Source: Mycobacterium dioxanotrophicus (lineage in GTDB: Bacteria > Actinomycetota > Actinomycetes > Mycobacteriales > Mycobacteriaceae). From it: a stretch of 64,000 nucleotides of DNA. A program made the translations under genes and the position numbers. Position 1 is the first letter of the stretch; each line of letters begins with the position of its first letter. The notes below the pieces were generated by a model. It did no database searches. It was not told the origin of the DNA and saw only the letters and a list, made by a program, of their open reading frames with translations. Of this stretch, positions 7,005 through 63,707 are shown in pieces. The stretch covers positions 5,876 through 69,875 of the forward strand of contig NZ_CP020813.1 in the NCBI RefSeq assembly GCF_002157835.1, written 5' to 3'.

Positions 7005-8156
7005 ATGGGCAGCAGCGAGACCACCGGCAACGCCGGAGTCGACTTCATCAACGACCCCGACCTGCGTATACGGGATCTGTCATACACCGGCAGTCGTATG
7101 CGCCAGCTGGTTGATCTCGCCAAGGGATCGTTCGTCGACATGGGCTTCGGGCCACGCAATGGGGACTCCGACAGCTACGACGCCACCGTCGACGAGGAGT
7201 GGCCAAGAGACCGCCTAGAGATCTACATCAAAGATAAGCCTCGTGGCCCCGGCTATGTCTGCGACATCGTCTACTACTGCGAAGATCTGCCCGTCACTGT
7301 GTATGCGGTTCTGATCAACCGCGGCCGCGGACTTGAGGTCGCCGAGCTGGAGCTGTTCCGCCGCAACTGGGGCTGCTTCGACGACCACGACAACTACCTG
7401 CATCCCGATGACCAAGACCCTATCGACCCCGACGAGCCCACGACCCTGATCACAAGCGATACGCTGCGCCGCATCCCGCTCGGGGACATCCTCGCTCGCG
7501 TCGAACGCGACCTGCCCGATGATGCGTGGCGCAACGAGGGCATACAGCAGATGCCCGGGAACACACGCCTGCGGGTCGAGGACCTCTCCGGCGATCAGCG
7601 TCGAGCCCTGGAGAACACAGCCACGGTGACCGCGAGGCGCAAGGGGCGCCCGGAACTCAGCGACGAGCTGCTGATCGAGGTCGCCGAGGCCTACATCGAT
7701 GAAGCAGCCCGCGGCCGCGGGGCGATCGGCCGCCTCTCAACAACGTTCGACCGACCTGAACCGACCATCCGCGACTGGATAGCCACAGCACGCAAACGCG
7801 AATTCCTCGCTCCCACCACACCAGGCCGGCGCGGGGCCGCTCCCGGCCCCAAACTGCCCCGCCCGCCTCGGGCGTATGCGGCACCAGACCTCACTCGGGC
7901 ACGCAGACGTACGGTGCTGCGGATGATCGAGAGGGATCGCATTCTTGATGCCGACATCGGCGAGGACGCCTTGCTCTTGTACACCGTGTCCGGCCTGGTA
8001 TGCAACGAGGTTGGGGTGGCCAAGATGGATGCGCTGCAGGCAGCGATGCAGGACCCACAGGTGCTCGACGCGGCGCTGAACATTCTGAATAAGGCGCGGC
8101 GCCGTCACGCCGCTGCGGCCGCCAGGAGCGGCAGCAGCGCTTCTCAACCACGCTAA
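7005..8156 (+). CDS. putative DNA-binding protein with internal HTH
   Basis: 383 residues. Residues 1-150 form an acidic alpha/beta domain (RLEIYIKDKPRGPGYVCDIVYYC). Residues about 215-270 carry a helix-turn-helix of a common actinobacterial type: a GRPELSDELLIEVAEAY helix, then STTFDRPEPTIRDWIATARK, ending in REFL. The last 110 residues are helical and basic. It is probably a plasmid regulator or replication accessory protein. The 120 bases upstream contain a widely spaced 9-bp inverted repeat (GCGAAAGAG 6902-6910, CTCTTTCGC 6971-6979), a possible operator. The target is unknown. Confidence 0.5.
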   Translation: MGSSETTGNAGVDFINDPDLRIRDLSYTGSRMRQLVDLAKGSFVDMGFGPRNGDSDSYDATVDEEWPRDRLEIYIKDKPRGPGYVCDIVYYCEDLPVTVYAVLINRGRGLEVAELELFRRNWGCFDDHDNYLHPDDQDPIDPDEPTTLITSDTLRRIPLGDILARVERDLPDDAWRNEGIQQMPGNTRLRVEDLSGDQRRALENTATVTARRKGRPELSDELLIEVAEAYIDEAARGRGAIGRLSTTFDRPEPTIRDWIATARKREFLAPTTPGRRGAAPGPKLPRPPRAYAAPDLTRARRRTVLRMIERDRILDADIGEDALLLYTVSGLVCNEVGVAKMDALQAAMQDPQVLDAALNILNKARRRHAAAAARSGSSASQPR

Positions 8157-8759: not shown

Positions 8760-8901
8760 TGATGGCGCTAAAGAAGACTGCCCAGAGATGCTAAGCGAAA
8801 TTGCCCAGTTGGCTTGAGTGGCTAAGGTTAGCAGGTTCGTCGTTGCAGGGGAACGATTGTGCCGTCGCCGGGGGTGCTGGGGCGGGCAGCTTCTGGAGTG
8901 G

Positions 8902-9126
8902 TCAGCAAAGCGACGATGGTGATGGGTTCGCCGCAATGCGGGCAGGAACGGGTGGCGGCCGGCTGTGGGCGGGTGGCCGGGCCTCGGTGACGGTGGCGGC
9001 GGTGTCGCTGTGTTTGCGTTGCTCCCAGGCGTGTTTGCGGCAGCGGTCTGAGCAGTAGATCTTGGTCGGTGTGGTGGCGGTGAATTCGGTCCAGCAGGCT
9101 TGGCAGGAACGGGTCTCAGCTGACAT
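8902..9126 (-). CDS. small zinc-ribbon protein carried by the IS21 element
   Basis: 74 residues from ATG 9126, overlapping the istB 3' end by 11 bases. It contains CQACWTEF followed by YCSDRCRKHAW, i.e. two CxxC-type pairs that would bind one zinc ion, then a basic and Pro-rich tail. It is a passenger or accessory gene downstream of istB within the element. Its role in transposition is not known to me. Confidence 0.5.
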   Translation of the reverse strand: MSAETRSCQACWTEFTATTPTKIYCSDRCRKHAWEQRKHSDTAATVTEARPPAHSRPPPVPARIAANPSPSSLC

Positions 9127-9902
9127 GGGCGGCGACCGCCTTACGCATCGTTTCGGCGGTGGCTTGGTGGTTGCGCAGCCGGTAGCTGGGTCCGTCGATA
9201 CCGACCACGGTGGCGCGGTGCAGTAGCCTGTCCAACATGGCGGCTGCGACGGTGGCGTCTCCGAAAGCGGTTGCCCAGTCAGCGATCCCAACATTGGTTG
9301 TCAGAATCGTACTCGACTTCAGATACCGTTGGTTGATCACCTGGAACAACGCGGATGCCCATCGCCGGGCAGCGGAAGGTAGCCAAGTTCGTCAATCACC
9401 AACAGTTTCGGTCCGGCGAAGAACCGCATGCAGGTGTGCCAGCGGCCTTCCAGGGCGGCTTTGTGGCAGCGGGCCGCCAGGTCGGCGGCGGTGGTGAAAT
9501 ACACCCGGTGGCCGGCCTCGACCGCGCCGCGGGCCAACGCGACGGCCAGCATGGTCTTGCCGACCCCGGGTGGGCCGACGAACAGCACGTTGGCCGCGTC
9601 GTCGAGGAAGCGCAGACTGGCCAGGTCGTTGATCAGTTTGGCGTCGACCCGGGCTGGGCGGCGAAATCGAAATCGGCCATGGTCCAGGGTTCGGGCAGAC
9701 AGGCGAACCGCAACCGTGAGGTCAGCCGGCGGGCTTCGGTGGCGTTGACCTCGATCTCCAACAGCCGCTCCAAAGCGGCGGTCAGGGACAGGTTTTCGGC
9801 GCGGGCGGCATCGAGGATGCGGGGTAGCGCTTCGGCTGCGTCGCCGAGTTTCAGATAGGACAGATGTGCCCGGAGTTGTTGGTATCGGCGGGCTTCGCTC
9901 AT
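9116..9902 (-). pseudogene. istB: IS21-family helper ATPase IstB, frameshifted
   Basis: The start MSEARRYQQLRAHLSYLKLG at 9902 runs to about 9640. The Walker A segment MLFVGPPGVGKTMLAVALAR lies in another frame (9588 downward), followed by Walker B LLVIDELGYLPLPG. The last part (INQRYLKSSTILTTN, then DRLLHRATVVGIDGPSYRLR) is in a third frame ending at 9116. All IstB blocks are present in order, but at least two indels break the frame. Confidence 0.75.
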
Positions 9903-11287
9903 CTGTGGGACGGTTTTGCTCAAGGGGTTACTCCTGGTTCTGTTCGGTTGGATGGTGTTGGGAACAACGGATAGCCGTGCTGCGGTCGCCGCATAGACGG
10001 CCAGATCGATCACTACCTTCTGGGCGGGATCGTTCGCCGGGGCACCACGCAGCCGCGCGGCCTCGGCAACGGCGGCCACCGAGGGCGGTCGCCGGGTCTT
10101 ATGAGTGCAAGGCCTGGCCGTCGAGAACCCCGATAGCACTGCCTGTTCGAGCGCGACGACGTGACCGGCATCGCGCACCACCGCGCCGCTGCCGTCGACC
10201 GCGCGGCGGTGCGCGGCAACAACGGCTCCCGATGCCGTGGTCAATTGCACGGTGTCAGAGCCCAGGCGGTGGGTGACGGTCACCGTGGCCCGGCCAGCCC
10301 CGGCGGCACCGAGTACTGATTGCCCGCCAGGACACCAACGCTTGTGGAGTGACGATGCGGTGTTCGGTCAACTCGGCCGGATACGAACCCGTCGGCAGTG
10401 ACCGTAGTGGTTCGGCATCGGCCAGGGCGCCGACGGTGGTGGCCTGCCCGTCGCGGCGCCGGCGGCGCCCGTCGAGCTTCACGCACAGCCGGTCCAGCGA
10501 CGCCTGGGCTTGCTCGATCGTGGTGTCGTCGGTGACGGTGCGCCACCAGCGTTGGGCGGCAGCGTGATTGGACTTCTCCACCACACCCTTGCGGTTGCCC
10601 CGTCGTGGCGGGCACACATCGACGGCGACAGCGTAGTGTTTGGCCACCCCGGCGAACGCCGCGGTGATCCGGCCCGATTCGGGATGACATACCGTGGCCA
10701 TCCGGTCGAACCGCCACCGCTGGGTGACCCCACCCAACCGGATGCTGACCGCCTCGATCGCTTCCACGACGTGCGCGAAGTCCTCGGCCGGGGCCAGCGC
10801 CCGCGCCAGCGGCTCGAATGGGCCAACGCCCCGACCAGCAGGTGGGCATGCCGGTCAGCCGCCCACGATGCTGGTGGATCGGGCAGCTCGACCCAGTCCC
10901 ACTGAGTCTCGACCCCGGCGGATGATCGATGACCGCGACGTCGCGGCCCTTGACCGACTGACACGGCTCGCAATGCGGTCGCAGCCCCAGGTTTCGGATT
11001 GCCAGGGTCAGCGACGGATACGAGCCGGTAAAACCTAGCTCGACGAGTTCGTCGAACAGGGTTGAGGCCCACAGGTGCGGATCGTCAGCCAGGCGGATCC
11101 GGCAGTACTCGACGAACGGATCGATCACCAGCGGTTCAGAGCGTTGGCGTTGCCCGGGTACTCGTTCCCCAGCCAGATAGGCCCGAACGGTTCGGCGATT
11201 GATCCCGAGATGGCGAGCGATCGCCGATATCGACCAACCCTGCTCCCGAAGCGCATGCGCTTCCACATCACCCTCCAGCGACAGCAA
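9902..11287 (-). pseudogene. istA: IS21-family transposase IstA, frameshifted
   Basis: The first frame holds the HTH (GWSISAIARHLGINRRTVRA) and continues to VIDHPPG near 10920. The catalytic core continues in a second frame (VETQWDWVELPDPPASW) and, after about 10818, in a third (AIEAVSIRLGGVTQRWRFDR). One or two more shifts near 10260-10330 are needed to reach the C-terminal GHVVALEQAVLSGFSTARP. The last frame runs into istB without a visible stop. A single intact IS21 transposase would need about four corrections. Confidence 0.75.
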
Positions 11288-11438
11288 ACGACGGCCCTCC
11301 CATTCATCAGCGGAAACACAACTCCGCTGACGATGAGCAGAACCCCGACAAGCAGTCCGACGACACGCCGAACCACCGCTGCCAACTGGGCACTTTCAAT
11401 TAGCGAGACTGAGCACTTTCACTTAGCGCCATCACAGC

Positions 11439-12095
11439 GGGGTGCGGGTCTCGATGTCGATCGCTGACCTGATCGTCGCCGACAAGTCTGCCGCTGCGTA
11501 CGAGATCAAAACCGGCCTCGACAGCTTCACTCGACTGGACATGCAGATGCTCTGCTATAGCAAGTGTTTCGAGTATGTCAACGTGGTGACCACACGCCAG
11601 AAGGCAAGCCGGGCGGGCGCGCAGACGGCCGCCCACATCGGCGTGGTGGCGCTCACCGATGACGGCGCTCTCGATGTGGTGCGCTCGGCCGCCGGCGGGC
11701 TGTCTCGTCTCGACATATCCTCGCTGTTTCGCGTCCTGCGTCGTGGCGAGCTACTGACAATCCTCGGCCGCCATGTCGGCTACAGCATCGATGTGCCCAG
11801 CGCCCAAATCTATCGCCGACTCAACGCACTGTTCATGCAACTGCCGCTCGACACCGCGTACGGCGAGTTCGTCGCCGCGCTGCGTGAGCGCGACCTACGC
11901 TCACGCCAAGCTGCCCGGGACGCGCAATTGCCCGCATCGCTGAGTGCCGCAGCCTCGGGTTTGAGCCTCACTCCGCCGGGGTGGCGGCGGCTGGCCGCGC
12001 AGCTCGGCCGTCCGGCCCACGAGTTCCGGACCCGCGGCGCACAGAGCCACGGTCACGGGTCAATCAGGAACTTCAACAGCTTTTCGATCCGGTAG
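11439..12095 (+). pseudogene. sce7726-family protein, 3' part, beyond the IS
   Basis: This open frame continues the interrupted gene: GVRVSMSIADLIVADK, then AAAYEIKTGLDSFTRL. The SxADL and EIKTxLDSxxRL blocks are conserved in the sce7726 family and resemble a PD-(D/E)xK nuclease core (D, then E-x-K). The rest is helical. The frame matches the 5' part exactly once the IS and one CAGC copy are removed, giving about 303 residues. The tail overlaps the convergent tpg-like gene by 43 bases. Confidence 0.7.
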
Positions 12096-12778
12096 CCGAG
12101 TTCATAGGTGGCGGGCAGATCCCAGCGAGGAGTAATCCACTGCATGACAATCTCGTCGGCGAGAAGCTCGTAGAGGCGTTCGTTGTCGTCGTTGACCCAC
12201 GCCTCGATCACCTCACCCTGAGGGTCGACATCCAGGGGTGCGTAGTCCTCTCCACCGGATTCCGGGATGCGCTTGGGGTACTCCTTGCCATTGATGATCA
12301 CAAACCCGTCGGTCTCCACGCCGATGCGCTGCGTCGGGGCGCCCGGGGGCACCTTCTCGTCGCGACGCCGTGACGGCAGCTTCGCCGCGGGATCAGCGGA
12401 GTCGCGCCAACTCCGCACACGCGCCGGTGTGGTGCCGAGCTGGCGGGCCATCTTGGCCATGCCACCAGCGCGATCGATCGCCGCCCACCGATCCAGCCAT
12501 AGCTTGTCCACACCTGTCGGCGGCTGATCGCGGCGGCCGCGGCGCGCAATCGTCGCCTCCGACAGCGCTTCGGTGTCGGTGTGCTGGGCGATACGGCGGG
12601 CCATCTCCTTGCGAGCTCGCCTGCCTGCCTCGGCACGGCGCATCCGTTCGGGCATCCGTTGCCATACCCCGCGCATCTCGCTGAGGCGCCGCTCGGTGAG
12701 CACTTTGAGCGCCTCCTGAAATCCCTGGCCCTGTGGGGACTGAGGCGTCGACCCGCCGGAGAGCTTCCAGAACTTCAC
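12053..12778 (-). CDS. Tpg-like terminal protein (candidate)
   Basis: 241 residues from a GTG at 12778 that overlaps the stop of the Tap-like gene as GTGA. An N-terminal basic helical region (about 20-90) is followed by an HTH (AGGMAKMARQLGTTPARVRS) and a C-terminal alpha/beta domain ending in a hydrophobic acidic tail (RIEKLLKFLIDP). Order and character match Streptomyces Tpg proteins (about 185 residues; HTH, then a C-terminal domain ending with short acidic hydrophobic strands), and tpg there lies directly downstream of tap. Tpg is the protein bound covalently to the 5' ends of linear replicons and primes end patching. Similarity is remote; the gene order is the main support. Confidence 0.5.
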   Translation of the reverse strand: MKFWKLSGGSTPQSPQGQGFQEALKVLTERRLSEMRGVWQRMPERMRRAEAGRRARKEMARRIAQHTDTEALSEATIARRGRRDQPPTGVDKLWLDRWAAIDRAGGMAKMARQLGTTPARVRSWRDSADPAAKLPSRRRDEKVPPGAPTQRIGVETDGFVIINGKEYPKRIPESGGEDYAPLDVDPQGEVIEAWVNDDNERLYELLADEIVMQWITPRWDLPATYELGYRIEKLLKFLIDP

Positions 12779-14613
12779 AGCAGCTCATCGGGGATGCTCT
12801 TGAGCCGATAACTGCCGTTGGTGCGCGTCCCGTCAGGACGCAATGGGTCCTGCAGGTCCGCCGGGTTGATCCCGTCGGGGACCCGGTAGAACCACGCATC
12901 GGCAAGGCATTCGGTCGGGTACAGGTCGAAGTCGCGGCCGATGCGCCGGGCGTAACGCAGGGCCCGCCAGCGAGTGAACCCTTCGATGGCGGCGTACCAG
13001 GCAGGCTGCTGGTGGTGCAGGTAAGGATGCTTGAACGCGCCCTCACCGGTGCCGGCGAGCCGGCCCAGGTAGCTGGTGTAGATGGCCTTGATCATGTTCT
13101 CGTAGTCGGTGCGGCCGGCCGCGCGGGCGGCAACCAGCCTGGCGCGCAGAGTTTCTCCGAACTGCTTGAGCCACTGGTGCTGTTCGGGCCACACCCAGGC
13201 CTTTTCGATCTGCAGTTCGGCCACGGCCAGACCAGCGCCACCGTTGTCCGGCGGTGCGATGAGCTGCTGGACATCGATCGTGGTGGCCCAGAACGTTGAT
13301 TCTTTGGTCCACGACATGCCCGGGTGAGGCACCGGCAGCTTCGGTGACAGCCCGTCGAGGCTGTCGGCGGCGGGCACGGTGATCTGGTACAGCCCGAACG
13401 GGGGTCGCTGCTCGTCGAACACGGTTGCCTCGATGCTCTCCCACTGGGGTTTGCCGTAGCCCAGGTAGAGACCTTCAGCCGACGGTAGATACGCCGCCTG
13501 CTGGTCGAGTTCGACGTCGGTGCCTTTACCGCGACTGCGGTGGGGCTTGCGCCGCCAGCTGGCCGGGCCCCACCACTGGCTGGGAAACTTGCCGCGCTCG
13601 TCGACAGCGGCCGGCAACGGGCAGGGAAGTACCTTGGCCTGCGGATCGGTCTTGGGTTTGGGACGGGCCCGCCGCATGCCGGATTCGGCGATGTGCACAC
13701 CCACACGTGTCCAGCGTGGTGCGGGCAGGGCCTCGTCGATCTCATGCAACCAGGCGATGCGATCGCCGAGCAGGTGCGCCGCGTCGACCTCATCGTCGGG
13801 CAACACGGTGTCGGTGCCTTCGATCCCGATGATGCCCCGGTCGGCGGGGCGCGCTGCCGACGGCTGTAGCGACGTTGCCGGCATCAGGATGAGTTCGATG
13901 GTGCGGTCGGTGCCGCCGCTTCCCTCTTCGGCGCTGAACTGGCAGGTGAAGTAGCCGGACTGGGCGTATTTCACTGTGGCGCCGAAGAATTCGGCGACCA
14001 GATCGGGCAGGGACGCCTCGTTGGCTTGATCGGCGGGGAAGTTCAGGGCTTCGAGTGCTTCCCCGGTTATCCAGACCTGGGGGTCGCCGTGGTCAGCGCG
14101 GCTGCTCCACCGATATTTGGTGGCCAGTTTGCCGAGGTCCCCGGGCTGGCCTAGTGGCCGTGATTTGACGTCGCCGGCCGGGGTGACGATGCCATAGCTG
14201 GTGGCTATCAGTACCCGGTGATCGGCCGCCGAGAGCGCCACGTCGTCCCACTGGCGGGAGCGCCGGGGCCAGTGCTGCGGGTCGTCGTCGGGGGCGGCTG
14301 CGTTGTCCTGGGTAGCGGTGGTGTCATCACCGGCTGAGTCCTGACGGTCTGTGAGCAGGTATCGCTGGACGGTCGGTTCCCACCAGCCTCGGGTGGGCCC
14401 CTGTTCGGGGTCCCCGACCACGACATCGGGGCCAGGAAAGTCCTCGGGGATGCCCCGGCCGAGCCGGGTGACAACCTGCTGTCGGGAGAGTGTGACCAGT
14501 GGGCCGTCGAGTTCGCGACAGCGTTCGGCGATGATCCAGTCGAGGATGTCACCAGCTTCGCCGTCTTCGCCAAGCTCGTATACCCGACCGTCCTTGATCA
14601 CATAGGTCGTCAC
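12775..14613 (-). CDS. Tap-like telomere-associated protein (candidate)
   Basis: 612 residues from a GTG at 14613 (GTGA overlap with the upstream gene). The C-terminal half matches blocks I recall in Streptomyces Tap: VELDQQAAYLPSAEGLYLGYG (Tap: DVNTAFLAAANRLVVG), NMIKAIYTSYLGRLAG (Tap: LSAIKSTVKGGIGKL), and a closing DLYPTECLADAWFYRVPDG block followed by DG.....NGSYRL (Tap: YPLAVLSDCVVY, then GGFRL). These blocks fall where family-B polymerases carry motifs A, B and C, a parallel I note without claiming activity. The N-terminal HTH of Streptomyces Tap is missing here; the small HTH gene just upstream may replace it. Tap recruits Tpg to telomere DNA. Confidence 0.6.
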   Translation of the reverse strand: MTTYVIKDGRVYELGEDGEAGDILDWIIAERCRELDGPLVTLSRQQVVTRLGRGIPEDFPGPDVVVGDPEQGPTRGWWEPTVQRYLLTDRQDSAGDDTTATQDNAAAPDDDPQHWPRRSRQWDDVALSAADHRVLIATSYGIVTPAGDVKSRPLGQPGDLGKLATKYRWSSRADHGDPQVWITGEALEALNFPADQANEASLPDLVAEFFGATVKYAQSGYFTCQFSAEEGSGGTDRTIELILMPATSLQPSAARPADRGIIGIEGTDTVLPDDEVDAAHLLGDRIAWLHEIDEALPAPRWTRVGVHIAESGMRRARPKPKTDPQAKVLPCPLPAAVDERGKFPSQWWGPASWRRKPHRSRGKGTDVELDQQAAYLPSAEGLYLGYGKPQWESIEATVFDEQRPPFGLYQITVPAADSLDGLSPKLPVPHPGMSWTKESTFWATTIDVQQLIAPPDNGGAGLAVAELQIEKAWVWPEQHQWLKQFGETLRARLVAARAAGRTDYENMIKAIYTSYLGRLAGTGEGAFKHPYLHHQQPAWYAAIEGFTRWRALRYARRIGRDFDLYPTECLADAWFYRVPDGINPADLQDPLRPDGTRTNGSYRLKSIPDELL

Positions 14614-14921
14614 GGGTGCCCCTTTCCGGCTTCGTCGGATGTCAGCGGTGGTGGTGGTACTTGCAGGGCAAGGCTTTCGGCCAATGTGCCGCGGCGCCAT
14701 TTCGCGCGCAGGGACTCGACGGCTGAGGCGGTACGGCCTACCTGGATGGCGGCTTCGGTCACCGGCAGTGACAGGTCCAGCGCGATACGGGCGTCGCCGA
14801 TGGTCCAGGGGTGTCCGCGTTTGGCTGCTGCGGCGCCGGTGCGCTCGGCGCGGCGCTCGCTGTAGCGACGGCGCTCGTCGCGGGAGCGTCGCCGCGGGGG
14901 TGGTGTCGGGTCGTCCGGCAT
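14610..14921 (-). CDS. small HTH protein coupled to the Tap-like gene
   Basis: 103 residues from ATG 14921 with AGGAAGG upstream; a longer frame exists but lacks this site. A very basic N-terminus (PPPRRRSRDERRRYSERRAE) is followed by a helix-turn-helix-like segment (WTIGDARIALDLSLPVTEAA, then IQVGRTASAVESLRAKW). The stop overlaps the tap-like GTG. Streptomyces Tap carries its DNA-binding HTH in the same chain, so this may be the split-off DNA-binding subunit (inference from gene order). Confidence 0.55.
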   Translation of the reverse strand: MPDDPTPPPRRRSRDERRRYSERRAERTGAAAAKRGHPWTIGDARIALDLSLPVTEAAIQVGRTASAVESLRAKWRRGTLAESLALQVPPPPLTSDEAGKGHP

Positions 14922-15016: not shown

Positions 15017-15760
15017 TCACGGCGCGACCGCCGGGCAGGTGGCGGCGGCGATGTTGCGCTCCTCGGTGGTGATCGCCAGGCCGTAGGTCACCGCGACGGT
15101 GAGGTATCGGGCGATGTAGGGGCAGCGGTATGACGGGTTCGGCGGCAGCCATGTCAGTCCTGAGTCCGACTTCTCGCGGTTGATCGTGCCACCGACTGCG
15201 ATCAGGTTCAGCGGATCGTTAGCGAACGCGACCCTCTGGGCGAGGCCCCAATGGGCTGCCCCAGCATGCCATGAGCGCCCCAGAGCAAACAGATGGTCGA
15301 TCTGGACCGCGGCCGGGTCACTGACGTCGAAGTGGATGGTCTCAGCCGTGTATGGGTCGACGAGGACCCCGGAAAGGACCTTGCAGCCCTGCGTGCCGGG
15401 CTTGATGGAGACCTGTTCTAACTGGCTACGCAGAATCCGCGACCGCGTATCGCATCCGCTGTGATCGTTGGGATCGTTCCACGCGGGGCCGAATGAACAT
15501 GCCTGTCCCCGTTTGCATCCCCGGTCATATCCGTCGACTTCGGGCAGGGTGTCGACGACGCGCACCTGCTCGAGGAGTACCGCGATCTGTTCGTCGGGCA
15601 CCGCAGCCACCGGTGGTGCGGACACTGTAGTCGGAGACGGCAGCAGCGAAGACAGTTCCTCAGGTATGCCTCCGGCCAGCACGGTCAGTGTGATCGCGGC
15701 AGCCGCGGCGATCAGCAAACGCCGCTGCAGGGACTTCATCCTCCGCTTGATCCGTGCCAT
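15017..15760 (-). CDS. secreted HNH endonuclease-like protein (DUF1524 type)
   Basis: 247 residues from ATG 15760, with AGGAAGG upstream. It has an N-terminal signal or anchor (RRLLIAAAAAITLTVLAGG). The C-terminal half holds the GmrSD-C/DUF1524 form of HNH: QIDHLFALGRSWHAGAAHWG with the His-containing DH motif, the Asn-containing FANDPLNLIAV, and NREKSDSGLTWLPP. Cysteine pairs suggest disulfides and extracytoplasmic location. Such proteins are common in actinobacteria and cut DNA non-specifically in some cases; the role in a replication operon is unclear. The parS-like palindrome at 15782-15802 sits just before it. Confidence 0.7.
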   Translation of the reverse strand: MARIKRRMKSLQRRLLIAAAAAITLTVLAGGIPEELSSLLPSPTTVSAPPVAAVPDEQIAVLLEQVRVVDTLPEVDGYDRGCKRGQACSFGPAWNDPNDHSGCDTRSRILRSQLEQVSIKPGTQGCKVLSGVLVDPYTAETIHFDVSDPAAVQIDHLFALGRSWHAGAAHWGLAQRVAFANDPLNLIAVGGTINREKSDSGLTWLPPNPSYRCPYIARYLTVAVTYGLAITTEERNIAAATCPAVAP

Positions 15761-15781
15761 GCCACGCCTTCCTGTGTCGTT

Positions 15782-15802
15782 GGTGATGCAGGCTGCATCA
15801 CC
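15782..15802. promoter_or_regulatory. lone parS-like palindrome between dnaB and the HNH gene
   Basis: TGATGCAGGCTGCATCA with symmetric flanks GG and CC. It is the reverse complement of the copies in the partition region 33 kb away (48463, 49659, 49695). The site is a candidate ParB-binding centromere element placed in the replication operon. Confidence 0.65.
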
Positions 15803-15846
15803 GAGGGGTGCCCTCATGCTACACACGTAGTGAGCATGAGGGGTGA

Positions 15847-17241
15847 TTATCCGCGCGCGAGGTCGCGGAACGAGGACATGTGAAGAGTTGACGCCACGGT
15901 GCACGTCCTCGTTGGCCCGTTCCTGTGCTTTGCCAGGATGAGGTCTGCTTCACCGGCCCGTGGGCTGTCCCGGTCGTAGCCGTCCGGGCGGTTGATAAGG
16001 ATTACCAAATCCGCATCCTGTTCCAGCTGACCGGTCTCGCGCAGGTCAGAGAGCTGTGGAACCTTGTCGACACGCTGTTCGGGTCCGCGGTTGAGCTGGC
16101 AGACCGCGACCACCGGCACGTCAAGTTCCTTGGCCATCAACTTGAGGCTGCGCGAAAACTCCGCCACTTCTGTTTGCCGAGATTCCACCCTCTTACCTGA
16201 GGACATCAGCTGCAGGTAGTCCACCACAATCAGCTGCAGATCCGTCTTCTGCTTGAGCCGGCGCGCCTTGGCGCGGATCTCCATCATGGTCAGGTTCGGG
16301 GAGTCGTCGATGAACAACGGGGCGTCGGAGATCTCGCCCATCCGCCGGGCCATCCGCGTCCAGTCGTCGTCGCTCATCCGGCCAGAGCGCATGTCGGCCA
16401 ATTTGATGCGGGCCTCCGCCGACAGTAGTCGCATCACAATCTCGGACTTACTCATCTCCAAGCTGAAGATGACGCTCGCGTGTCCGTGCTTGATTGAGCA
16501 GGACCGCATAAAGTCAAGTGCCAGAGTCGATTTCCCTTGGCCGGGCCGGCCCGCGACGATGACCATCTGGCCGCCGTGCAGGCCGGTGGTCACTTCGTCG
16601 AGATCGGCGAATCCGGTCGGAACTCCTTGGCCTTGACCGCCGCCGGCCTGGATCGCGTCGATCTCGTCCATGGTGGGCTGCAGCAGGTCCTCCAGCGCCA
16701 CCATGTCCTCACTGCCGCGGTCCTCGGTGACGTCGTAGATCTCGGCCTGGGCGCGGTCGACGACCTCGGCGATGTCGGCGCCGTCGGCGCCGGCGTAGCC
16801 GTACTGCACCACCCGGGTGCCGGCCTCCACCAAGCGGCGCAGGACGGCCTTCTCGGCGACGATGCCGGCGTAGTAGCCGGCATTGGCGGCCGTGGGAACC
16901 GTGGCGATCAGCGTGTGCAGGTAGGGGGCTCCTCCGACACGCCGCAGCACTCCGCGTCGATCGAGTTCGGCGGCGACTGTCACCGCGTCCGCCGGTTCGC
17001 CCTGGCCGAACAGGTCCAGGATCGCGTCGTAGATCTGTTGATGGTTGGGCCGGTAGAAGTCCTTGGGCCGCAGCCGTTCGAGCACATCGGCGATCGCATC
17101 CTTGCTCAGCATCATCCCGCCCAGTACGGACTGCTCGGCCGCTAGGTCCTGCGGTGGTTGGCGAGCATCGTCGAGATCGGTGTAGGGCTCCGCCGGCCGT
17201 CGGTGCTGGGTACGCGCTGGAGCGTCGTCGAGATCGGTCAT
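15847..17241 (-). CDS. dnaB: replicative DNA helicase, DnaB family
   Basis: 464 residues, intact and without intein. The N-terminal helical domain (DLAAEQSVLGGMMLSKDAI) is followed by the RecA-like core. Walker A is GRPGQGKST (231-239). SVIFSLEMSKSEIVMRLLSA, Walker B (LQLIVVDYLQLM), the CQLNRGPE motif and SDLRETGQLEQDADLVILI follow. The hexamer unwinds DNA at replication forks. A plasmid-borne copy suggests that the replicon brings its own fork helicase. The ATG overlaps the stop of the upstream rep-like gene (ATGA), so loader and helicase are translationally coupled. Confidence 0.92.
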   Translation of the reverse strand: MTDLDDAPARTQHRRPAEPYTDLDDARQPPQDLAAEQSVLGGMMLSKDAIADVLERLRPKDFYRPNHQQIYDAILDLFGQGEPADAVTVAAELDRRGVLRRVGGAPYLHTLIATVPTAANAGYYAGIVAEKAVLRRLVEAGTRVVQYGYAGADGADIAEVVDRAQAEIYDVTEDRGSEDMVALEDLLQPTMDEIDAIQAGGGQGQGVPTGFADLDEVTTGLHGGQMVIVAGRPGQGKSTLALDFMRSCSIKHGHASVIFSLEMSKSEIVMRLLSAEARIKLADMRSGRMSDDDWTRMARRMGEISDAPLFIDDSPNLTMMEIRAKARRLKQKTDLQLIVVDYLQLMSSGKRVESRQTEVAEFSRSLKLMAKELDVPVVAVCQLNRGPEQRVDKVPQLSDLRETGQLEQDADLVILINRPDGYDRDSPRAGEADLILAKHRNGPTRTCTVASTLHMSSFRDLARG

Positions 17242-26885: not shown

Positions 26886-27272
26886 CCGCCGGCGGGCCTC
26901 AGCCGCTAGCCATGTTACCCATCCCCGTTGCCGTCATGGCCGCATACCTGCAACCGGGCTCGGTAGCACGTTATCTACGCAGCTCAGCTAGATCGGCAGC
27001 AGACCACCCATGCCTGAAAGCCATGAAGCTGGCCGTGTTGGACTCCTCGCATGCCAGCCGGGCGTGCTATCCAGAATGCTAGCAACTTATCAGCTAACGA
27101 CCCGTGTCAGCGTCTCGGCTCCTCGCTTGCCTCCGGCCGCTCAGTGCCGAGCGTAGCACATGGTGTCAAGCATAGCGAACGATTCATATGCCGCTACCGC
27201 CTCGGCCAACCCCGGAGTCGCCAAGGTGAGCTCCTCTGGAAAACGACCGGCACCAGCGGCATCGTCTTAAGC
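26886..27272. other. 387-bp non-coding region before the conjugation operon
   Basis: Frames in this stretch read through with unnatural composition; no gene is supported. Local GC drops (for example near 27060-27100). It is the likely promoter region for the transfer operon that follows on the plus strand. Confidence 0.4.
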
Positions 27273-28247
27273 GTGAGCTTCCGACCCACCGCCGCAGACC
27301 GACTCCACCGAGCCTGGGCCCGCCGCCATGCCCACCGCCGTACCGTGCAGCGGGCGGCTACCGTCACCTGCCTAGCGTTGGGCGCCATCGGTGGACTCGG
27401 AACGTTGGCGGGCGCTTGCTCCCCCGACACCTCTGTCACGGCCGAGCAGATGGCGGTCACTCTCAATCGATCGGTAGCAGTCGAAGGCTTCGCCGATGCC
27501 TTCATCAACGCCTATCTCAGCGGCGCTAAAGGCCCCACTGCGCTGCCGCTGACAGCATTCACTTCCGTCCCCATCACCGCACCCCCGGTGCCAGTGAGCG
27601 TGATCAAGACAGCCCCCTGGTCAGCCCGGCCACAAGACAGCGGCTACGCCAATATCGACTACTGGTCGGTCGTGATCGGCGCCTTCGTCAAACCGCTCGG
27701 CAAATCGCCGCAGCTGTGGTTCTACCAAGTCCCAGTCGCCGTCGTCGATGGAGCACCGCGGGTCACCTCGGCCCCCGCATTCCTCAACGGGCCACCCCCC
27801 GGATACGACCCCGAACTGGCCTACCCCGTCGACGTCCTCGCCCACAGCGACCCAGCCGACACCGTGACGGGATTCCTCGAATCCTGGCTGTCTGGAACCG
27901 GTGACATCACCCGCTACAGCACCGCCCCCGGCATCAGCGCCTTCCCGGAAACCCCATTCACCCGAATCACCAGTACCTCACTCAAATCCACCACCGAAAT
28001 ACCCACCCGACCTGCCGAGGGATTCAGCACACAAGTACTTGCCACAATTACCGCACAGGACCGAGACCGAATAACTCAAACACTCAGCTACCCACTGACA
28101 ATCTCCTACCGCACCAACAAATGGTTTGTCACCGATATCGACCTCGCACCAAAACTCGGAGGACGACTGAGTGAAACCGCCGCAACCACCGCGGCCAACA
28201 CCCCGACTACTACGCCGCCCTATTCACGACCGACACTCCCGCGGTAA
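27273..28247 (+). CDS. tcpC: TcpC-family conjugation protein (VirB8-like)
   Basis: 324 residues from a GTG at 27273; other starts are possible and no strong ribosome site is visible. A basic N-terminus and one membrane helix (TVTCLALGAIGGLGTLAGA) precede two repeated NTF2-like domains. The first contains EGFADAFINAYLSGAKG and WSVVIGAFVKPLGKSPQLWF; the second contains ADTVTGFLESWLSGTGDITR and TISYRTNKWFVTDIDLAP. This layout is that of TcpC, the assembly factor of Gram-positive type IV secretion systems, structurally like VirB8. It starts the transfer operon. Confidence 0.7.
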   Translation: MSFRPTAADRLHRAWARRHAHRRTVQRAATVTCLALGAIGGLGTLAGACSPDTSVTAEQMAVTLNRSVAVEGFADAFINAYLSGAKGPTALPLTAFTSVPITAPPVPVSVIKTAPWSARPQDSGYANIDYWSVVIGAFVKPLGKSPQLWFYQVPVAVVDGAPRVTSAPAFLNGPPPGYDPELAYPVDVLAHSDPADTVTGFLESWLSGTGDITRYSTAPGISAFPETPFTRITSTSLKSTTEIPTRPAEGFSTQVLATITAQDRDRITQTLSYPLTISYRTNKWFVTDIDLAPKLGGRLSETAATTAANTPTTTPPYSRPTLPR

Positions 28248-28285
28248 TTACGGCCACCGACAACAGCCCGAAAGGAACAATAACC

Positions 28286-28537
28286 ATGAGCGGAATCACG
28301 CAAGTACTCTTGAACCTCTCCACCGAGGTCCGCGGAATCATCATCGCAGTTATCACCATCATCGCCCTCATAATGAGCGCGGTCGTCTTCGCACAATCAC
28401 GCGGATCGGTCACCAAAGTGCTCGTCGTTCTCGCCTCATCGGTCGTCGCGGGAATCGTTGTGTGGCAGCTGCCCGACCTCATCCGCCTGGGCGTCAGCGA
28501 CGCGCCCAACCTCACCGGCATCAACAGCCGCTACTGA
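28286..28537 (+). CDS. small two-helix membrane protein, TcpD-like
   Basis: 83 residues from ATG 28286, with AAAGGA upstream. Two hydrophobic helices lie at about 17-36 (GIIIAVITIIALIMSAVVFA) and 43-62 (TKVLVVLASSVVAGIVVWQL). The size, two-helix topology and position between tcpC and the TcpE-like gene match TcpD-type proteins of Tcp-style conjugation systems. Sequence conservation in this family is low, so the name rests on context. Confidence 0.6.
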   Translation: MSGITQVLLNLSTEVRGIIIAVITIIALIMSAVVFAQSRGSVTKVLVVLASSVVAGIVVWQLPDLIRLGVSDAPNLTGINSRY

Positions 28538-28548
28538 GCCCGCCCCCT

Positions 28549-28965
28549 ATGAGCTCGACCATCGACGTCACCGTCTACACGCTCGCCCGCAAATTCCCCA
28601 AGCTGATCGGGAAGTTCGCGAACGGCAAACCGGTACCCCTAGGCCCCTATACCTATCTGCAGGTCGCAACCCTCATCGTCGGCGTCGTCACACTGCTGAC
28701 GATCGTCGGCGTGTTCGACCCGCCCAAGCTGCCCGCCTTGTTCGTCGGAGCCGCCATCATCGGCCCCACTGTGGTCGCTGTACGCCGCATCGGGTTCAGC
28801 ATGGCGCGTACCAGCTCGCGGATGATCTGGACCAGCCGAGCGTGGACACAGCGCAAGCCACTGAGCACCGGCGGCCGCGAAATCACCGCCCCCCATTCCG
28901 GACGGGCACCCCTGACCCCAACTGGCGGCCGCCGTGACGTCTTCGAAATGGACACGACCCACTGA
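28549..28965 (+). CDS. TcpE-like membrane protein
   Basis: 138 residues from ATG 28549; the frame is open much further upstream but overlaps two other genes. The N-terminal part TLARKFPKLIGKFANGKPVP is followed by two membrane helices (about 37-55 and 61-78) and a cytoplasmic basic tail with RTSSRMIWTSRAWTQRK. TcpE proteins of Gram-positive type IV secretion have this size, topology and position, directly before the VirB4-type ATPase. The stop overlaps the next start (TGATG). Confidence 0.65.
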   Translation: MSSTIDVTVYTLARKFPKLIGKFANGKPVPLGPYTYLQVATLIVGVVTLLTIVGVFDPPKLPALFVGAAIIGPTVVAVRRIGFSMARTSSRMIWTSRAWTQRKPLSTGGREITAPHSGRAPLTPTGGRRDVFEMDTTH

Positions 28966-31421
28966 TGCTGAAACTGACCCAACCCACCCTCGCGGTCACC
29001 GGGAACCTGCGCTGGACCCTCACTGGCGTCGTCTACGCCGAGTGGCTACTGTCCCCGCGGCCTAACGGCCACGAACGCCCCAGTGACAGGCGCGAGGTCG
29101 TCAAAGACCACCGCGACCTGTTCACCGATATCCCCGAGACCATCTTGACCACCGTGGTCGCGCCCCTCGACGTCGCCAGCATCGCCGCCCGACTTACCGC
29201 CACAGCCCGCACAGACAGCCAGCACTCAATCGGCTCGTTCCTCCAACGACACCCCGACTACACAGTCGAGGCGTCGGCACAGCTCAACGCGATAGAACTG
29301 CAGGCTCGGCCCCCCCACGAACGGATCATGTGGCTGTCGGTTCCGCTGTGCGGACCGTCGCGCACCGGAGACCTACCTTCTGATTTCATCCCCTCGGACA
29401 AACACCGCGAGCAATTCGACGCCCTCGCTGACGAGATCCGACGCAAGATCCCGGCCTCGTTCGCACCCACCGCGGTCAATGCCACCCAGATGCACTGGCT
29501 TTGGGACCGGGCCCATACCCGCGGCCTCGCCCTGGACCACACCGCCGCCGACCCATCGGCACCGCGTCCCTTTCCCCACAACCGCACCACCACCACACGG
29601 CGGGGACGCATCCGCGGGTTCCGACTCTCTGGAGAACTCGACGAGACTCTGGCCACCGACGACCGCAAGCGTCGCACCCTGACCCGCGCGATCAAGACCT
29701 ACTACACCGACAGTGAGCTCGCCCCGTCCTACCAACAGTTTCTGGTCGTCGACGACTTCGCTACCCGGATGCCCTGGCCAGGCGTCGCCGACCAGATCTT
29801 CGCCGTCCTCAATCATTTCGAGGGCGCTGGCATCGACTTCACCATCCACACCCGCAAGCGGGACCGATCCGAAGCGCTGGCCGCCAACGCGCGAGCTCTG
29901 CGCCAACTCTCCGAGCAGATGGACGAACGCAGCGACGAAGTCAGCTTCGCGCAGAACTTCCTGGTCCACCGCGGACAACAACTGGCCCAATACGACAATC
30001 ACCTCGAAAGCAGGCCCTCGGAAACCGAAATCCAGTTCTGCCCCATCATTGCGATCTCCGCGCCCAGCTTCGAAGAGCTCGAGGACCGCTCGCGCGAGGT
30101 GATCCGCACCTTCAATAGCACCGGCGTGAAACTGGTCGCCCCCTACGGCGCCCAAGCCGAGCTCTGGGCCGCCAGCCAACCCGGATATCCCGAGACCCGC
30201 GCGCGCAGCGACTACACCCATTTCATGCCGACCGACACCTTCGCCTGTTTCATGCCGGTCACCGCACCGCAGATCGGCGACGACTCCGGCCCGTTGATCG
30301 CAACCAACCGGCTCTCCGGCTTCCACGAGCCCGTGCACTTCGACCTACTAGGGGCCACCGAGCGCGACAAGTCCGCCAGCTTCGCCATGACCGGCGACCT
30401 CGGTTCGGGTAAGTCCGTGGCCCTCAAGGTGATCTCAGGGATGGTCGTCGACCTCAGCGGACAGGTGTTCGCCGTGGACCGTTCCAAACTCGGCGAGTAC
30501 CTGCTATTCGCCCAGGCGGTGGCCAACGCGGTAGTCATCGATCCGGCAAACCCCACCTACACCATGGACCTGCTGCGCGTGCTGCCTACGGCCGACGCCG
30601 CCGAACGCATCCTGCCGGTGTTGATGCGGTTGTTCCAGATCAAAAGCGGATCCCCAGAGGCGGCCCTGCTCTCGGATCTGATCGAACCCAACTACCGGGC
30701 CCGCCACCGCATCCGCGGCCTGCCGGACCTGGTGAACCACACCATCGCACTGGCCCGCGACCACACCACCAACACCCCAGCGATCGAAACGCTGGCCGGC
30801 CAGCTGCGGTTCTGGTCGCAACGCACCTACGCGCGTGCACTATTCGCCGACGACCTACACCCACTACCCCTCGACGCACCGATGGTCGTGCTGCGCACCC
30901 ACAGGCTGCAGCTGCCCGCCGAAGAAGAACAACCCGCCGACGACCCGACCAAACTGTTCGGCGAGGTGATCTACGCCCTCTACGCCACCATCGCCCGAGA
31001 GGCGTTGTTCGCCAGCCAAGCGCGATTCGGTCTCCTCGTGCTCGACGAGGCCCTGCACCTGACGCGTTCCGTCGTTGGCCAATCGATCATCAGCGAGTTC
31101 GTCGTCGATGGTCGCAAACACAACGCCGCCATCGGCATCGCCTCCCAGGATCCCGCCCACTTCGGTCGATTCCGCCGACTCATCCCGACGCTGTTCATGT
31201 TCCGGCAGAGCGACGAGGTGTTGGCAGCCGACAGCCTCAAGATGGCCAGCGAGGACGCAGCAGCCGACCATCTCGTGCAGCAGATGACCCGGTTTAGCCC
31301 TGGTGAGTGCTTCATGAAGGACCTCAAGCAACGACTCGGCTCGGTCAAGATCGCCCTACCGGCGCATCCCGACCGCGCTCGCGCGGTGCTGACCACCCCC
31401 ACCCGAGAAGCGATCGCGTGA
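28965..31421 (+). CDS. VirB4/TcpF-type conjugation ATPase
   Basis: 818 residues from ATG 28965. An N-terminal alpha/beta domain (about 1-300) precedes the ATPase core. Walker A is GDLGSGKS (about 477-484) and Walker B is LLVLDEA (about 690-696), followed by ISEFVVDGRKHNAAIGIASQD and FMFRQSDE, typical of VirB4. It powers assembly of, and transport through, the transfer channel at the inner membrane. It is the largest intact gene of the operon, coupled at both ends (TGATG upstream, GTGA downstream). Confidence 0.88.
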   Translation: MLKLTQPTLAVTGNLRWTLTGVVYAEWLLSPRPNGHERPSDRREVVKDHRDLFTDIPETILTTVVAPLDVASIAARLTATARTDSQHSIGSFLQRHPDYTVEASAQLNAIELQARPPHERIMWLSVPLCGPSRTGDLPSDFIPSDKHREQFDALADEIRRKIPASFAPTAVNATQMHWLWDRAHTRGLALDHTAADPSAPRPFPHNRTTTTRRGRIRGFRLSGELDETLATDDRKRRTLTRAIKTYYTDSELAPSYQQFLVVDDFATRMPWPGVADQIFAVLNHFEGAGIDFTIHTRKRDRSEALAANARALRQLSEQMDERSDEVSFAQNFLVHRGQQLAQYDNHLESRPSETEIQFCPIIAISAPSFEELEDRSREVIRTFNSTGVKLVAPYGAQAELWAASQPGYPETRARSDYTHFMPTDTFACFMPVTAPQIGDDSGPLIATNRLSGFHEPVHFDLLGATERDKSASFAMTGDLGSGKSVALKVISGMVVDLSGQVFAVDRSKLGEYLLFAQAVANAVVIDPANPTYTMDLLRVLPTADAAERILPVLMRLFQIKSGSPEAALLSDLIEPNYRARHRIRGLPDLVNHTIALARDHTTNTPAIETLAGQLRFWSQRTYARALFADDLHPLPLDAPMVVLRTHRLQLPAEEEQPADDPTKLFGEVIYALYATIAREALFASQARFGLLVLDEALHLTRSVVGQSIISEFVVDGRKHNAAIGIASQDPAHFGRFRRLIPTLFMFRQSDEVLAADSLKMASEDAAADHLVQQMTRFSPGECFMKDLKQRLGSVKIALPAHPDRARAVLTTPTREAIA

Positions 31422-33529
31422 ACTCCAGAATTCGCAAATCCGCCCGCCGGCTGACCTTGCTGCTGACCCCAGCTGCTTACAGCCTGATCACGGCTGCCCC
31501 AGCGTGGGCCGCAGTGGGACTAGGCGTCGGGGCGTTATGGATCGGGGTGACCGACGGCGACGGCGTGCCGATCGGCACCTATGGACTGTCGTTGGACAAC
31601 GGAAGCCTGACCAACCCGCAGGCTGCACCCTCAGCCATGGTCCACCACTGGCTCTACAGTGTGTTTCTCACCATCATCGGTCTGGCCCTGTGGCTCATCG
31701 ACAACGTGCTCAGCTTTCAGTGGCTCAGCATCATCGCCACCCCCATCGACTTCGTCGGCCAGAAGGTCGCCGCCCTGGTGGTCAGCCCCGCGGTGCTGCT
31801 CTTCGTCGCGACGCTGGCCGCAGGTTTCATCGCCGTCAACGTCCTGACCGGCAAGCTGAGCCGCGCGGCCGTACAGATCGGCACCGCGGTGATCCTCGCG
31901 CTGCTCGCGGTAACGCTGGGCAGCAAGCCCCTCAGCGACCTTGTAGGCCCCGGTGGCGGACTGGCCATGGGCCGCGACATCGGCATCGACCTCACCACTG
32001 AGCTGTCTGGAAAGTCCTCCACAGGGGAGCAAGCGCTCTCCGACTTCACCACCTCACTGGCCGACAACTTCGTCCGCACCCCCACCCTGGTATGGAACTT
32101 CGGCGCTAATCTCGACGCCGCCCCCTACAACTGCGGCAGCGCTTGGTCAGCCGCCGTGCAGGTCGGTGACATCGACACGGTGAAGGACGCCGTACAGGGC
32201 AGCTGTCCCGGCGGCGAGCAGCTGCATCAGTTCGCGATGAACGACTCCAGCAGTAAAGGCGCCACAGCGCTGATGTCGATCCTCTTCGCGCTGTGCGTGC
32301 TGGCCGTCTTCGGCTACCTCTGCTACCAGGTCGTATTGCTGGCCCTGTCGGCGTTGTTCTGGGCGATCGTGGCGATCGTCGCCCTCATCGCCGGAATGGT
32401 CCCAGGATCACCACAGGGGTTAGCCATCAAGTCCGCCCTCGATGCAGTGTTCGCGATCGCCGGAATGACCTGCTACGTCGCCATTCTCGGCCTGACCGGC
32501 GCGCTCACTTCCGCCATGTTCACCCTCGCCGGAGACGATGTGATCATGGCGATGCCGCTGGTCTCGCTGCTGCTGGTAGCCCTTGTGCTGGCACTGCGCA
32601 AGGTCGGAAACGGCCTCGTCGCGGTCCGAAATCGCGCCGCCCAACGGGCAGCCTCATTCGGCGGGGGAAGCGACGCCCTGGGGGGCAATGGGCTCACCAG
32701 TCAGAACAACAGCCCTGGCCTCCTGGACCGCCTCGATCCCCTCACCGCGGTCCCCCATGCCACGCACACCCTTTCGGCGCGGAGCAAGAGCGCCGCCACG
32801 ACCGCCGCGAAGCTCGGCGTGGCTACCGCGGCACCAGAGGTCGCCCCGTTCATCGGGGCCGCCGACGCGCTGATGTCCAAGCAAGCCGCCAGTCAACAAC
32901 GCAGGAAGCGCACGGAATCGACTGCGGCCGAGTCCCGCTCACCTCGGCCCCCGCGGCAATCCCACGGGCGCCCGCAGTCCGCCACCTCGCCCCCGAGCAT
33001 CGGCTCAGCAGACCTGACCGGTGAATCGAACGCTGAGAGCACGTCCCGATTCGCACCCCCGGCCGCGCCACCTGACACGCCGTCGAACCCCGCTTCGAGC
33101 GCCGAGCCCAGCCCAGGCCCGCGCTCCCCCACCGCGGCGTCCACGTTGTCTCAGCTCACCCAACCCCCGGCGGACAACGGTGCATACACACCGACAGGGT
33201 TGCCCGCGCGAGAGCACCGCTCAACCGGGACCGACGCCGCATTCCTCATGGCCAGACCGGCTACCGTCGAAGAAGCTCAGAAACGATTCCCAGCCCTGTG
33301 CGGGCATCTGACCACACGCGGGGACTACTGCATCAACCCTGCGGACACCTGCCCTCATCACCCGCGGCGCACCAGCGCGGCGCCCGCGATGCACCCGGCC
33401 CTGGCCGACCTGGCGCGCGGCGACGGCGGCTCAGCCTCGACCCCGGACGGTTTGGCGAGACCGGCCGACTCGCGCGACGTGCGCACCGAGTTGATGATGG
33501 GCAACGCTTCAGCCGACCGGCAACGATGA
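31418..33529 (+). CDS. VirB6/TrbL-like polytopic membrane channel protein
   Basis: 703 residues from a GTG at 31418 that overlaps the VirB4 stop. A cleavable-looking signal (LTLLLTPAAYSLITAAPAWA) is followed by several membrane helices (for example about residues 85-110, 120-180, 290-410). The C-terminal 270 residues are cytoplasmic, Ser/Pro-rich, with a short Cys/His cluster near the end (LCGHLTTRGDYC, then CPHHP) that may bind zinc. VirB6-like proteins form the inner-membrane pore of type IV secretion systems. The tail is longer than usual in this family. Confidence 0.75.
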   Translation: MNSRIRKSARRLTLLLTPAAYSLITAAPAWAAVGLGVGALWIGVTDGDGVPIGTYGLSLDNGSLTNPQAAPSAMVHHWLYSVFLTIIGLALWLIDNVLSFQWLSIIATPIDFVGQKVAALVVSPAVLLFVATLAAGFIAVNVLTGKLSRAAVQIGTAVILALLAVTLGSKPLSDLVGPGGGLAMGRDIGIDLTTELSGKSSTGEQALSDFTTSLADNFVRTPTLVWNFGANLDAAPYNCGSAWSAAVQVGDIDTVKDAVQGSCPGGEQLHQFAMNDSSSKGATALMSILFALCVLAVFGYLCYQVVLLALSALFWAIVAIVALIAGMVPGSPQGLAIKSALDAVFAIAGMTCYVAILGLTGALTSAMFTLAGDDVIMAMPLVSLLLVALVLALRKVGNGLVAVRNRAAQRAASFGGGSDALGGNGLTSQNNSPGLLDRLDPLTAVPHATHTLSARSKSAATTAAKLGVATAAPEVAPFIGAADALMSKQAASQQRRKRTESTAAESRSPRPPRQSHGRPQSATSPPSIGSADLTGESNAESTSRFAPPAAPPDTPSNPASSAEPSPGPRSPTAASTLSQLTQPPADNGAYTPTGLPAREHRSTGTDAAFLMARPATVEEAQKRFPALCGHLTTRGDYCINPADTCPHHPRRTSAAPAMHPALADLARGDGGSASTPDGLARPADSRDVRTELMMGNASADRQR

Positions 33530-36107: not shown

Positions 36108-36159
36108 GCGGAAGCCAGAAGGGTCGACCATGCCACCGTTGCGCTGGGACAATGACGCT

Positions 36160-36972: not shown

Positions 36973-37062
36973 CCCGAACGCCAAAATCGCTGCACCGCAA
37001 CGGATACGCGTCAGCAACGAGTCCTCTTGAGAAGCGCTGACACTGCATCGAGAGTGGTAAGG

Positions 37063-37290
37063 GTGAAAAGCTGGCCAGCCACTGCTGTCATGATTGTGCT
37101 CGCTTCCGCCGTCGCAGTAGCGGTAGGACTGCGGCGGGCCGCGGCGCCGACGAACTCGTTCCGGGTCGCCGCAGACGCGCTCCCGCCGGTCGTCATCGAC
37201 CGACTCCGCCATCCCGGTGCGCCGACCTACATGGTCAGCTGGGACCGAGTCGATCGCGTCGCTCTGTGGAGGCCGGTCGAACGCCGATGA
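37063..37290 (+). CDS. small single-pass membrane protein
   Basis: 75 residues from a GTG at 37063, with GTAAGG just upstream. One hydrophobic helix (PATAVMIVLASAVAVAVGL) is followed by a short outside or inside domain ending WDRVDRVALWRPVERR. The stop overlaps the start of the FtsK-type ATPase gene (ATGA), so it is very likely translated with it. No family recognised; perhaps an accessory subunit of the coupling protein. Confidence 0.5.
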   Translation: MKSWPATAVMIVLASAVAVAVGLRRAAAPTNSFRVAADALPPVVIDRLRHPGAPTYMVSWDRVDRVALWRPVERR

Positions 37291-39511: not shown

Positions 39512-39597
39512 GAATGCCCAGTCTGGGCCCATAGCGTCATAGCCGGACCTGGTGTACGACACCACACGACGGCTACGAGAGGAGCTCCAGCGCCATC

Positions 39598-63706: not shown

Positions 63707-63707
63707 C

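Follow-up and report, generated by a model that had tools for sequence, protein, structure and literature searches.

A Tap-like protein with a predicted protein-primed polymerase fold and a candidate terminal protein on a plasmid contig of Mycobacterium dioxanotrophicus

How might the ends of a linear mycobacterial plasmid be completed and capped? The question is raised by a three-gene unit in a 64,000-nucleotide stretch of Mycobacterium dioxanotrophicus DNA, analysed as a whole and referred to here as the window. The window corresponds to bases 5876 to 69875 of contig NZ_CP020813.1 (C5, 69,875 bp), so that its end coincides with the contig end; the source genome comprises 8.08 Mb in 5 contigs. 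The unit (12053-14921, minus strand) encodes a small helix-turn-helix (HTH) protein, a 612-residue protein resembling the Streptomyces telomere-associated protein Tap (P0001) and a 241-residue protein resembling Tpg, the Streptomyces terminal protein (TP) (P0002), with a GTGA overlap at both gene-gene junctions. An earlier note, made from the sequence alone, had proposed that these last two genes form a Tap/Tpg-like pair and that the replicon may be linear with protein-capped ends. The open reading frame (ORF) positions and sequence blocks it gave are present on the minus strand, as are the GTGA coupling and the separate HTH gene directly upstream; 26 of the 28 searched relative loci have a homolog of this gene, the exceptions being L012 and L042. 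With a probability of roughly 80%, we consider that the cassette serves to replicate the ends of a linear plasmid of the invertron type.

The Tap likeness was borne out by profile-profile comparison. A profile built from 22 sequences of the window and Rhodococcus types aligned with a Streptomyces Tap profile (A3, 20 of 120 listed Taps) over 429 columns with a score of 60.6 (probability 91%, E 1e-6), compared with 23.3 for the best of 30 column-shuffled decoys and 18.6 for the reversed profile. The same profile matched the Tap of the Arthrobacter plasmid pAL1 at E 4e-14, a score without decoy comparison, and a narrow mycobacterial profile matched pAL1 Tap as well (probability 91%, E 9e-7). The NCBIfam model telomere_Tap (NF047542) in turn matched the pAL1 protein (E 2e-26) and the pBD2 protein (E 2e-9), both below its curated cut-off. 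Taken together, these matches support membership of the window protein in the Tap superfamily. Two aspartates, D399 and D601, are invariant in 37/37 aligned sequences (alignment A1, P0001 plus 36 of 37 homologs, the short P0032 being left out). Since the profile scores also lie far above the decoys, the likeness exceeds chance. Residue numbers refer to a 641-residue form, as the frame is open from an upstream ATG at 14700. The Streptomyces-type N-terminal HTH, which the earlier note had reported missing, was not detected by Pfam at E 1 (control: HTH_3 in pSV2 Tap, E 1.7e-4). Because the upstream HTH gene is conserved, its origin by splitting off from Tap is plausible. With the Tap-like query, tblastn found matches in 130 of 72,556 plasmid records (E up to 1), among them 92 from Rhodococcus and 11 from Prescottella, the remainder being mostly mycobacterial. 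Among these plasmids are pCLP and pBD2, which the database lists as linear. Within the genus, 35 of 297 genomes contain a match; as far as close relatives of the protein are named, they come from mycobacteria.

What kind of protein is this Tap? Its predicted fold is a family-B polymerase palm, nearest to the protein-primed subfamily, with the phi29 polymerase as the closest structure. Three sequence blocks are in register with motifs A, B and C of phi29, and the motif alignment scores above decoys; of 36 phi29-type loci, 26 were tried, 21 were kept (translated without stop) and three were used in this alignment. In the model D601 sits between two strands (597-599 and 602-608). At phi29 motif C the first aspartate is absent from the Tap-like protein and the second alone is kept. 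Judged by its predicted fold, the protein is very likely a divergent protein-primed family-B DNA polymerase, which by analogy would catalyse DNA synthesis primed by a TP. That Tap itself resembles such a polymerase had been missed by the earlier note.

The candidate TP was modelled with AlphaFold2 (predicted local distance difference test score 85, predicted template modelling score 0.53) as a helical N-terminus, an HTH and a beta-helix-beta C-terminus. Its HTH matched a YdaS-like Pfam family at E 4e-5, below the cut-off. The last 95 residues contain 20 acidic and 9 basic residues, so that the label acidic C-terminal domain holds. At 25 of 29 loci the gene immediately after tap is TP-like (misses: L033, L034, L035 and L102); the loci include the duplicates L026/L097, L008/L027 and L031/L103 and the group L029/L030/L100/L101. 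In hhalign comparisons a 36-sequence TP profile matched pBD2-type proteins (4 sequences) at E 1e-12 over 159 columns, pAL1-type proteins (6 sequences) at E 2e-5 (probability 76%) and Tpg (2 sequences) at E 7e-4 (probability 26%). The pAL1-type and Tpg profiles matched each other at E 2.5e-8, and by their C-termini alone at E 2e-5. NCBIfam telomere_Tpg (NF047541) gave no match to P0002; as controls, it matched pSV2 Tpg at E 2.5e-88 and the pAL1 TP at E 2e-5. The kinship of the third protein with Tpg, as seen in these comparisons, runs via intermediates and depends largely on the HTH part. In alignment A2 (P0002 plus 25 of 28 homologs; P0063, P0064 and P0068 left out) Thr76 is the sole hydroxyl residue invariant in all 26 sequences, and Thr67, Tyr167 and Tyr229 are nearly so; one of these may be the residue that primes. 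The pAL1 protein is described as one of the TPs deoxynucleotidylated in vitro, with dCMP (PMC3572947, accessible text).

Is the replicon itself linear? The earlier note had suggested inspecting the contig ends for inverted repeats and palindromes; no terminal inverted repeat (TIR) was found at the ends of C5, which are unassembled, the contig breaking off inside genes. A relative contig, C36 of genome G199 (55,327 bp), is 95-97% identical to C5 in blocks totalling about 18 kb and differs in the rest. It reaches 2,059 bases past the left end of C5 and starts with CCCCCC; poly-C 5' ends are a telomere sign published for pCLP and pS2b, as far as the accessible text goes. An ORF of C36 (1798-2280) crosses the point where C5 starts, and C36:1-2059 has no match in the final 5 kb of C5; it is therefore improbable that C5, in its stored form, is a closed circle. 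The outer 2,059 bases of C36 were not found in the genome of the window by a search without positive control. The first 300 bases of C36 hold one perfect hairpin of the counted kind, which is within the range of shuffles. We read C5 as an unfinished linear plasmid; its linearity is inferred, as its own ends are unassembled and the relative matches over about 18 kb only.

The relatives bear on the same question. Plasmid pS2b of M. avium (NZ_CP076860) carries the pair at 265368-268006, the tap-like gene at 265368-267287 and the next gene at 267305-268006, both annotated as hypothetical proteins and with 50% identity over 97% (Tap-like) and 41% over 69% (TP-like) to the window proteins. In the accessible part of its description (PMC12803027), the pS2b ends are protein-bound by pulsed-field gel electrophoresis with sodium dodecyl sulfate, the terminal proteins are called 'as-yet-unknown', and PHMMER relates pCLP proteins to two pS2b hypothetical proteins, possibly for linear maintenance and without an assigned function. 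pMyong2 carries a homologous pair, and its ends share an inverted repeat about 470 bp long (88%); the accessible text of its paper describes the plasmid as linear, with terminal repeats of 68 bp. Among 13 tap-bearing contigs tested, four have a clear TIR, one a partial TIR (G305:C2) and eight none; for window-type tap the clear cases are 2 of 5. Contigs without a listed tap match, one of them a chromosome, showed a TIR at their ends in 0 of 12 cases. The M. paragordonae plasmid NZ_CP025548 (144,093 bp, seen as G251:C3, loci L121/L133) is recorded as circular, but both its ends start with CCCCCCCCCGGCCTTCGGCC and have palindromes, so that it is probably linear. The ends of G253:C2 match the left telomere of pCLP (77% over 124 columns), and 5 hairpins were counted at the right end of G187:C2, where shuffles gave no more than 3. 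Hence the proposal of a linear, protein-capped replicon gains support from the pairs on pS2b, pMyong2 and pCLP, from the telomere repeats on several tap-bearing contigs and from the poly-C start of C36.

How, then, could the cassette work? Internal replication is proposed because a DnaB helicase gene stands beside it. Copying of the plasmid would start at an internal origin and leave 3' single-strand overhangs at both ends, which may form hairpins. Recognition of such a folded end would probably fall to the small HTH protein together with the HTH of the TP. Next, the Tap-like polymerase would attach an initial nucleotide to a hydroxyl group in a side chain of the TP (dCMP, should the end be poly-C like those of the relatives) and make a short primer to be extended by host polymerases, the TP remaining on the 5' end as a cap. 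Our confidence in the individual catalytic steps is lower than in the readings of the cassette and the fold. The results listed by the literature searches include no test of these end-replication steps for this clade. For Streptomyces Tap-Tpg, protein-hydroxyl-primed DNA synthesis has been shown by others, according to the accessible text; in that of a 2015 study, Tap shows polymerase activity without a polymerase motif, a new class is proposed and Streptomyces is said to be without a B-family polymerase.

Several results weigh against these readings. At E 1 the Tap-like protein had zero matches in Pfam and NCBIfam, telomere_Tap included, and by this measure it falls outside the Streptomyces Tap equivalog family; pSV2 Tap scores 1092.6 bits on that model, and both the Tap and the Tpg model fire on Streptomyces controls. 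The earlier note had proposed profile searches of both proteins; these gave the profile-profile match to Tap described above and no match to either NCBIfam model. The narrow mycobacterial profile matches Streptomyces Tap weakly (probability 22%, E 9e-4; probability 7.5%, E 0.0047). Among the nine best fold matches the whole-chain TM-scores are low (0.33-0.37 by query length), phi29-based profiles gave no sequence signal, and neither did searches of PDB sequences, PHROGs and, by tblastn, phages, the phi29 polymerase serving as PHROGs control (DNA polymerase family, E 1e-201). Low TM-scores and narrow sequence profiles that detect nothing would be expected if the likeness to phi29 were a prediction artefact and Tap an unrelated protein. 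We hold this to be very unlikely. For the third gene, the C-terminal part of the window-type TP alone gave no significant match in hhalign. Of the earlier claim of Tpg likeness, the HTH (with weak scores), the acidic C-terminus and the tap-then-tpg order stand. The HTH is the clearest domain of this protein, and HTH likeness alone can yield strong hhalign scores, as one HTH decoy family matched pAL1-type proteins at E 4e-9 and pBD2-type proteins at E 4e-5. The gene might accordingly encode a transcription regulator, with the TP encoded elsewhere. The same decoy, however, reaches only E 0.0038 with the window-type TP, far short of the pBD2-type match, and the gene stands immediately 3' of tap in most loci, as tpg does in Streptomyces. 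A regulator is thus unlikely.

Doubts about linearity are of a different kind. TIRs occur on only 4 of the 13 tap-bearing contigs, a small sample, and C36 covers only about 18 of the 69.9 kb of C5. The pMyong2 paper, in its accessible text, describes termini closed covalently by hairpin loops, which does not agree with protein caps. In pCLP the tap-like gene (L009, 17407-21371) is split into three open frames, the first two of which are separated by an IS607-family element. Since pCLP is reported to be linear in the accessible text, an intact gene in cis is not a constant requirement, and the ends of pCLP may need help in trans. The replicon could also be a circular plasmid on which the cassette is a relic or serves another purpose: C5 is without TIR, and the homologous plasmids NZ_CP025548, NZ_CP084587 and NC_020276 are recorded as circular. 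The circular label, however, is borne by the M. paragordonae plasmid despite its mirrored poly-C palindromic ends, and by pMyong2 (NC_020276), for which linearity is reported from experiments in the accessible text. The ORF across the start of C5, its unmatched last 5 kb and the outer bases of C36 likewise speak against a circle. The stored pS2b record also is without TIR, and as pS2b is experimentally linear, missing repeats are weak evidence. A circular replicon is therefore decidedly unlikely. Were the ends linear, the polymerase could still copy the whole plasmid from them in the manner of phi29, to which its predicted fold is nearest. The genes for ParA, a ParB-type protein and a DnaB helicase point to internal replication instead, and in the 2015 study Tap with Tpg alone halts after a 13-nt product; we regard whole-plasmid copying as most improbable. 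Completion of the ends by the cassette remains our preferred reading.

Some Tap relatives on other mycobacterial plasmids are about 1,100 residues long and consist of two Tap modules in one chain (five were read, loci L170-L174). The halves are related to each other (E 3.6e-6), and the second matches pAL1 Tap at E 2.5e-85. In these five loci module 1 has, by eye, Thr or Ala at the position of the motif A aspartate, and module 2 keeps YDRGGSY and a DTVLY-type motif, an arrangement reminiscent of eukaryotic Pol epsilon. A pAL1-type TP is found in all five loci (E about 1e-59 or better against the L172 copy; 5e-27 for pAL1 itself). In L170 it is followed by a second HTH gene (7443-8153), with counterparts in L172-L174.

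More broadly, the protein-primed family-B polymerases of the phi29/tectivirus type probably have a widespread branch in cells, namely the entire Tap family, whose members range from the plasmids of mycobacteria and Rhodococcus to the chromosomes of Streptomyces. Actinobacteria would then finish linear DNA with a B-family polymerase, the third gene would be the long-missing mycobacterial TP, and some plasmids would carry two-module chains, the first module without the motif A aspartate. If the fold is true, its likeness to phi29 and the conserved aspartates would explain the puzzling DNA synthesis by Tap, consistent with the biochemistry, and bacterial telomeres would be linked to protein-primed viruses. 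A 2026 survey of bacterial polymerases describes Actinobacteria as typically without family B; its accessible text mentions telomeres once, in a reference title. For mycobacteria, a candidate TP can now be named for plasmids with caps still described as unknown in 2026, and the pair is a marker for plasmids possibly mislisted as circular in databases.

The features are listed in Table 1. In the same block as the cassette lie the DnaB-type helicase gene and, between the two, a nuclease-like gene; by eye, locus L176 has a gene order resembling this block. A Pfam scan of 20 window ORFs found ParA, ParB-type HTH and conjugation-type domains among further matches. A conjugation-type block (window 27051-43447) contains TcpC-like, AAA_10, FtsK-like and NlpC/P60 domains. 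Near the downstream end of the cassette, window 8760-11427 (about 2.7 kb) has no counterpart in C36 and holds degenerate ORFs that we take to be IS21-like. For window 62501-64000, where the contig breaks off, several related stretches occur in other genomes (at most 77% identical as DNA); its translated end presumably belongs to a YrbE-type permease of an mce operon.

Table 1. Positions of the cassette, its predicted domains and motifs, and related features (window coordinates unless a contig is named)
Feature	Position	Strand	Remarks
Small HTH gene, cassette gene 1	14610..14921	-	ORF; 103 aa from ATG
Tap-like gene, predicted protein-primed family-B DNA polymerase	12775..14613	-	612 aa from GTG
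Motif A-like block TDVELDQQAAYLPS	13480..13521	-	residues 394-407; D399, Y404; aligned with phi29 motif A
Motif B-like block MIKAIYTSYLGR	13060..13095	-	residues 536-547; inside helix 531-547 of model
Motif C-like block PTECLADAWFYR	12883..12918	-	residues 595-606; aligned with phi29 DTDS
Candidate TP gene	12053..12778	-	241 aa, GTG start
HTH of candidate TP	12398..12481	-	residues 100-127; weak YdaS and carph-isopro matches below cut-offs
Acidic C-terminal domain of candidate TP	12056..12340	-	residues 147-241; model secondary structure
GmrSD_C-domain nuclease-like gene	15017..15904	-	Pfam E 7e-14; between helicase and cassette
DnaB-type replicative helicase gene	15847..17241	-	Pfam DnaB_C E 1.8e-96; same block as cassette
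Tandem-Tap loci L170-L174	G253:C3, G301:C3, G187:C2, G305:C2, G034:C2
Clear TIRs	G251:C3, G253:C2, G301:C3, G253:C3		113 bp, 717 bp, 255 bp and 697 bp, respectively

Among known systems, Streptomyces Tap-Tpg, which patches the ends of linear chromosomes and plasmids, resembles the window pair in the order of Tap then TP, in Tap homology over about 400 columns, in the HTH of the TP and in the proposed patching of ends. It differs in that a separate upstream HTH gene stands here in place of the N-terminal HTH of Tap, that the window pair is too distant for the NCBIfam models NF047542 and NF047541, and that the window TP has 241 residues, compared with about 185 in Tpg, to which it is related via intermediates only. 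The Arthrobacter plasmid pAL1 shares the homologous Tap domain and a TP-type gene directly downstream, whereas its Tap has 1707 residues, compared with 612 in the window, and resembles a CHC2 zinc finger weakly, scoring below the cut-off. The Rhodococcus linear plasmids pBD2 and WAY2 share the two-gene design, the pBD2 protein being 32% identical over 73% of the query, although pBD2 represents a separate sequence type in which the motif B lysine is replaced; for WAY2 plasmids, distant tap/tpg homologs have already been described in the literature. The pS2b-type giant linear plasmids of M. avium are a further known system, pS2b carrying the same gene pair. With the phi29-type and tectiviral polymerases the Tap-like protein shares the predicted fold and motifs A, B and C, and polymerase and TP genes are adjacent also in phi29, PRD1, Momos and PineapplePizza. 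Sequence identity to phi29-type polymerases is nevertheless very low, and of motif C only the second aspartate is kept. Moreover, these phages replicate whole genomes in this way, while the system in the window would patch ends.

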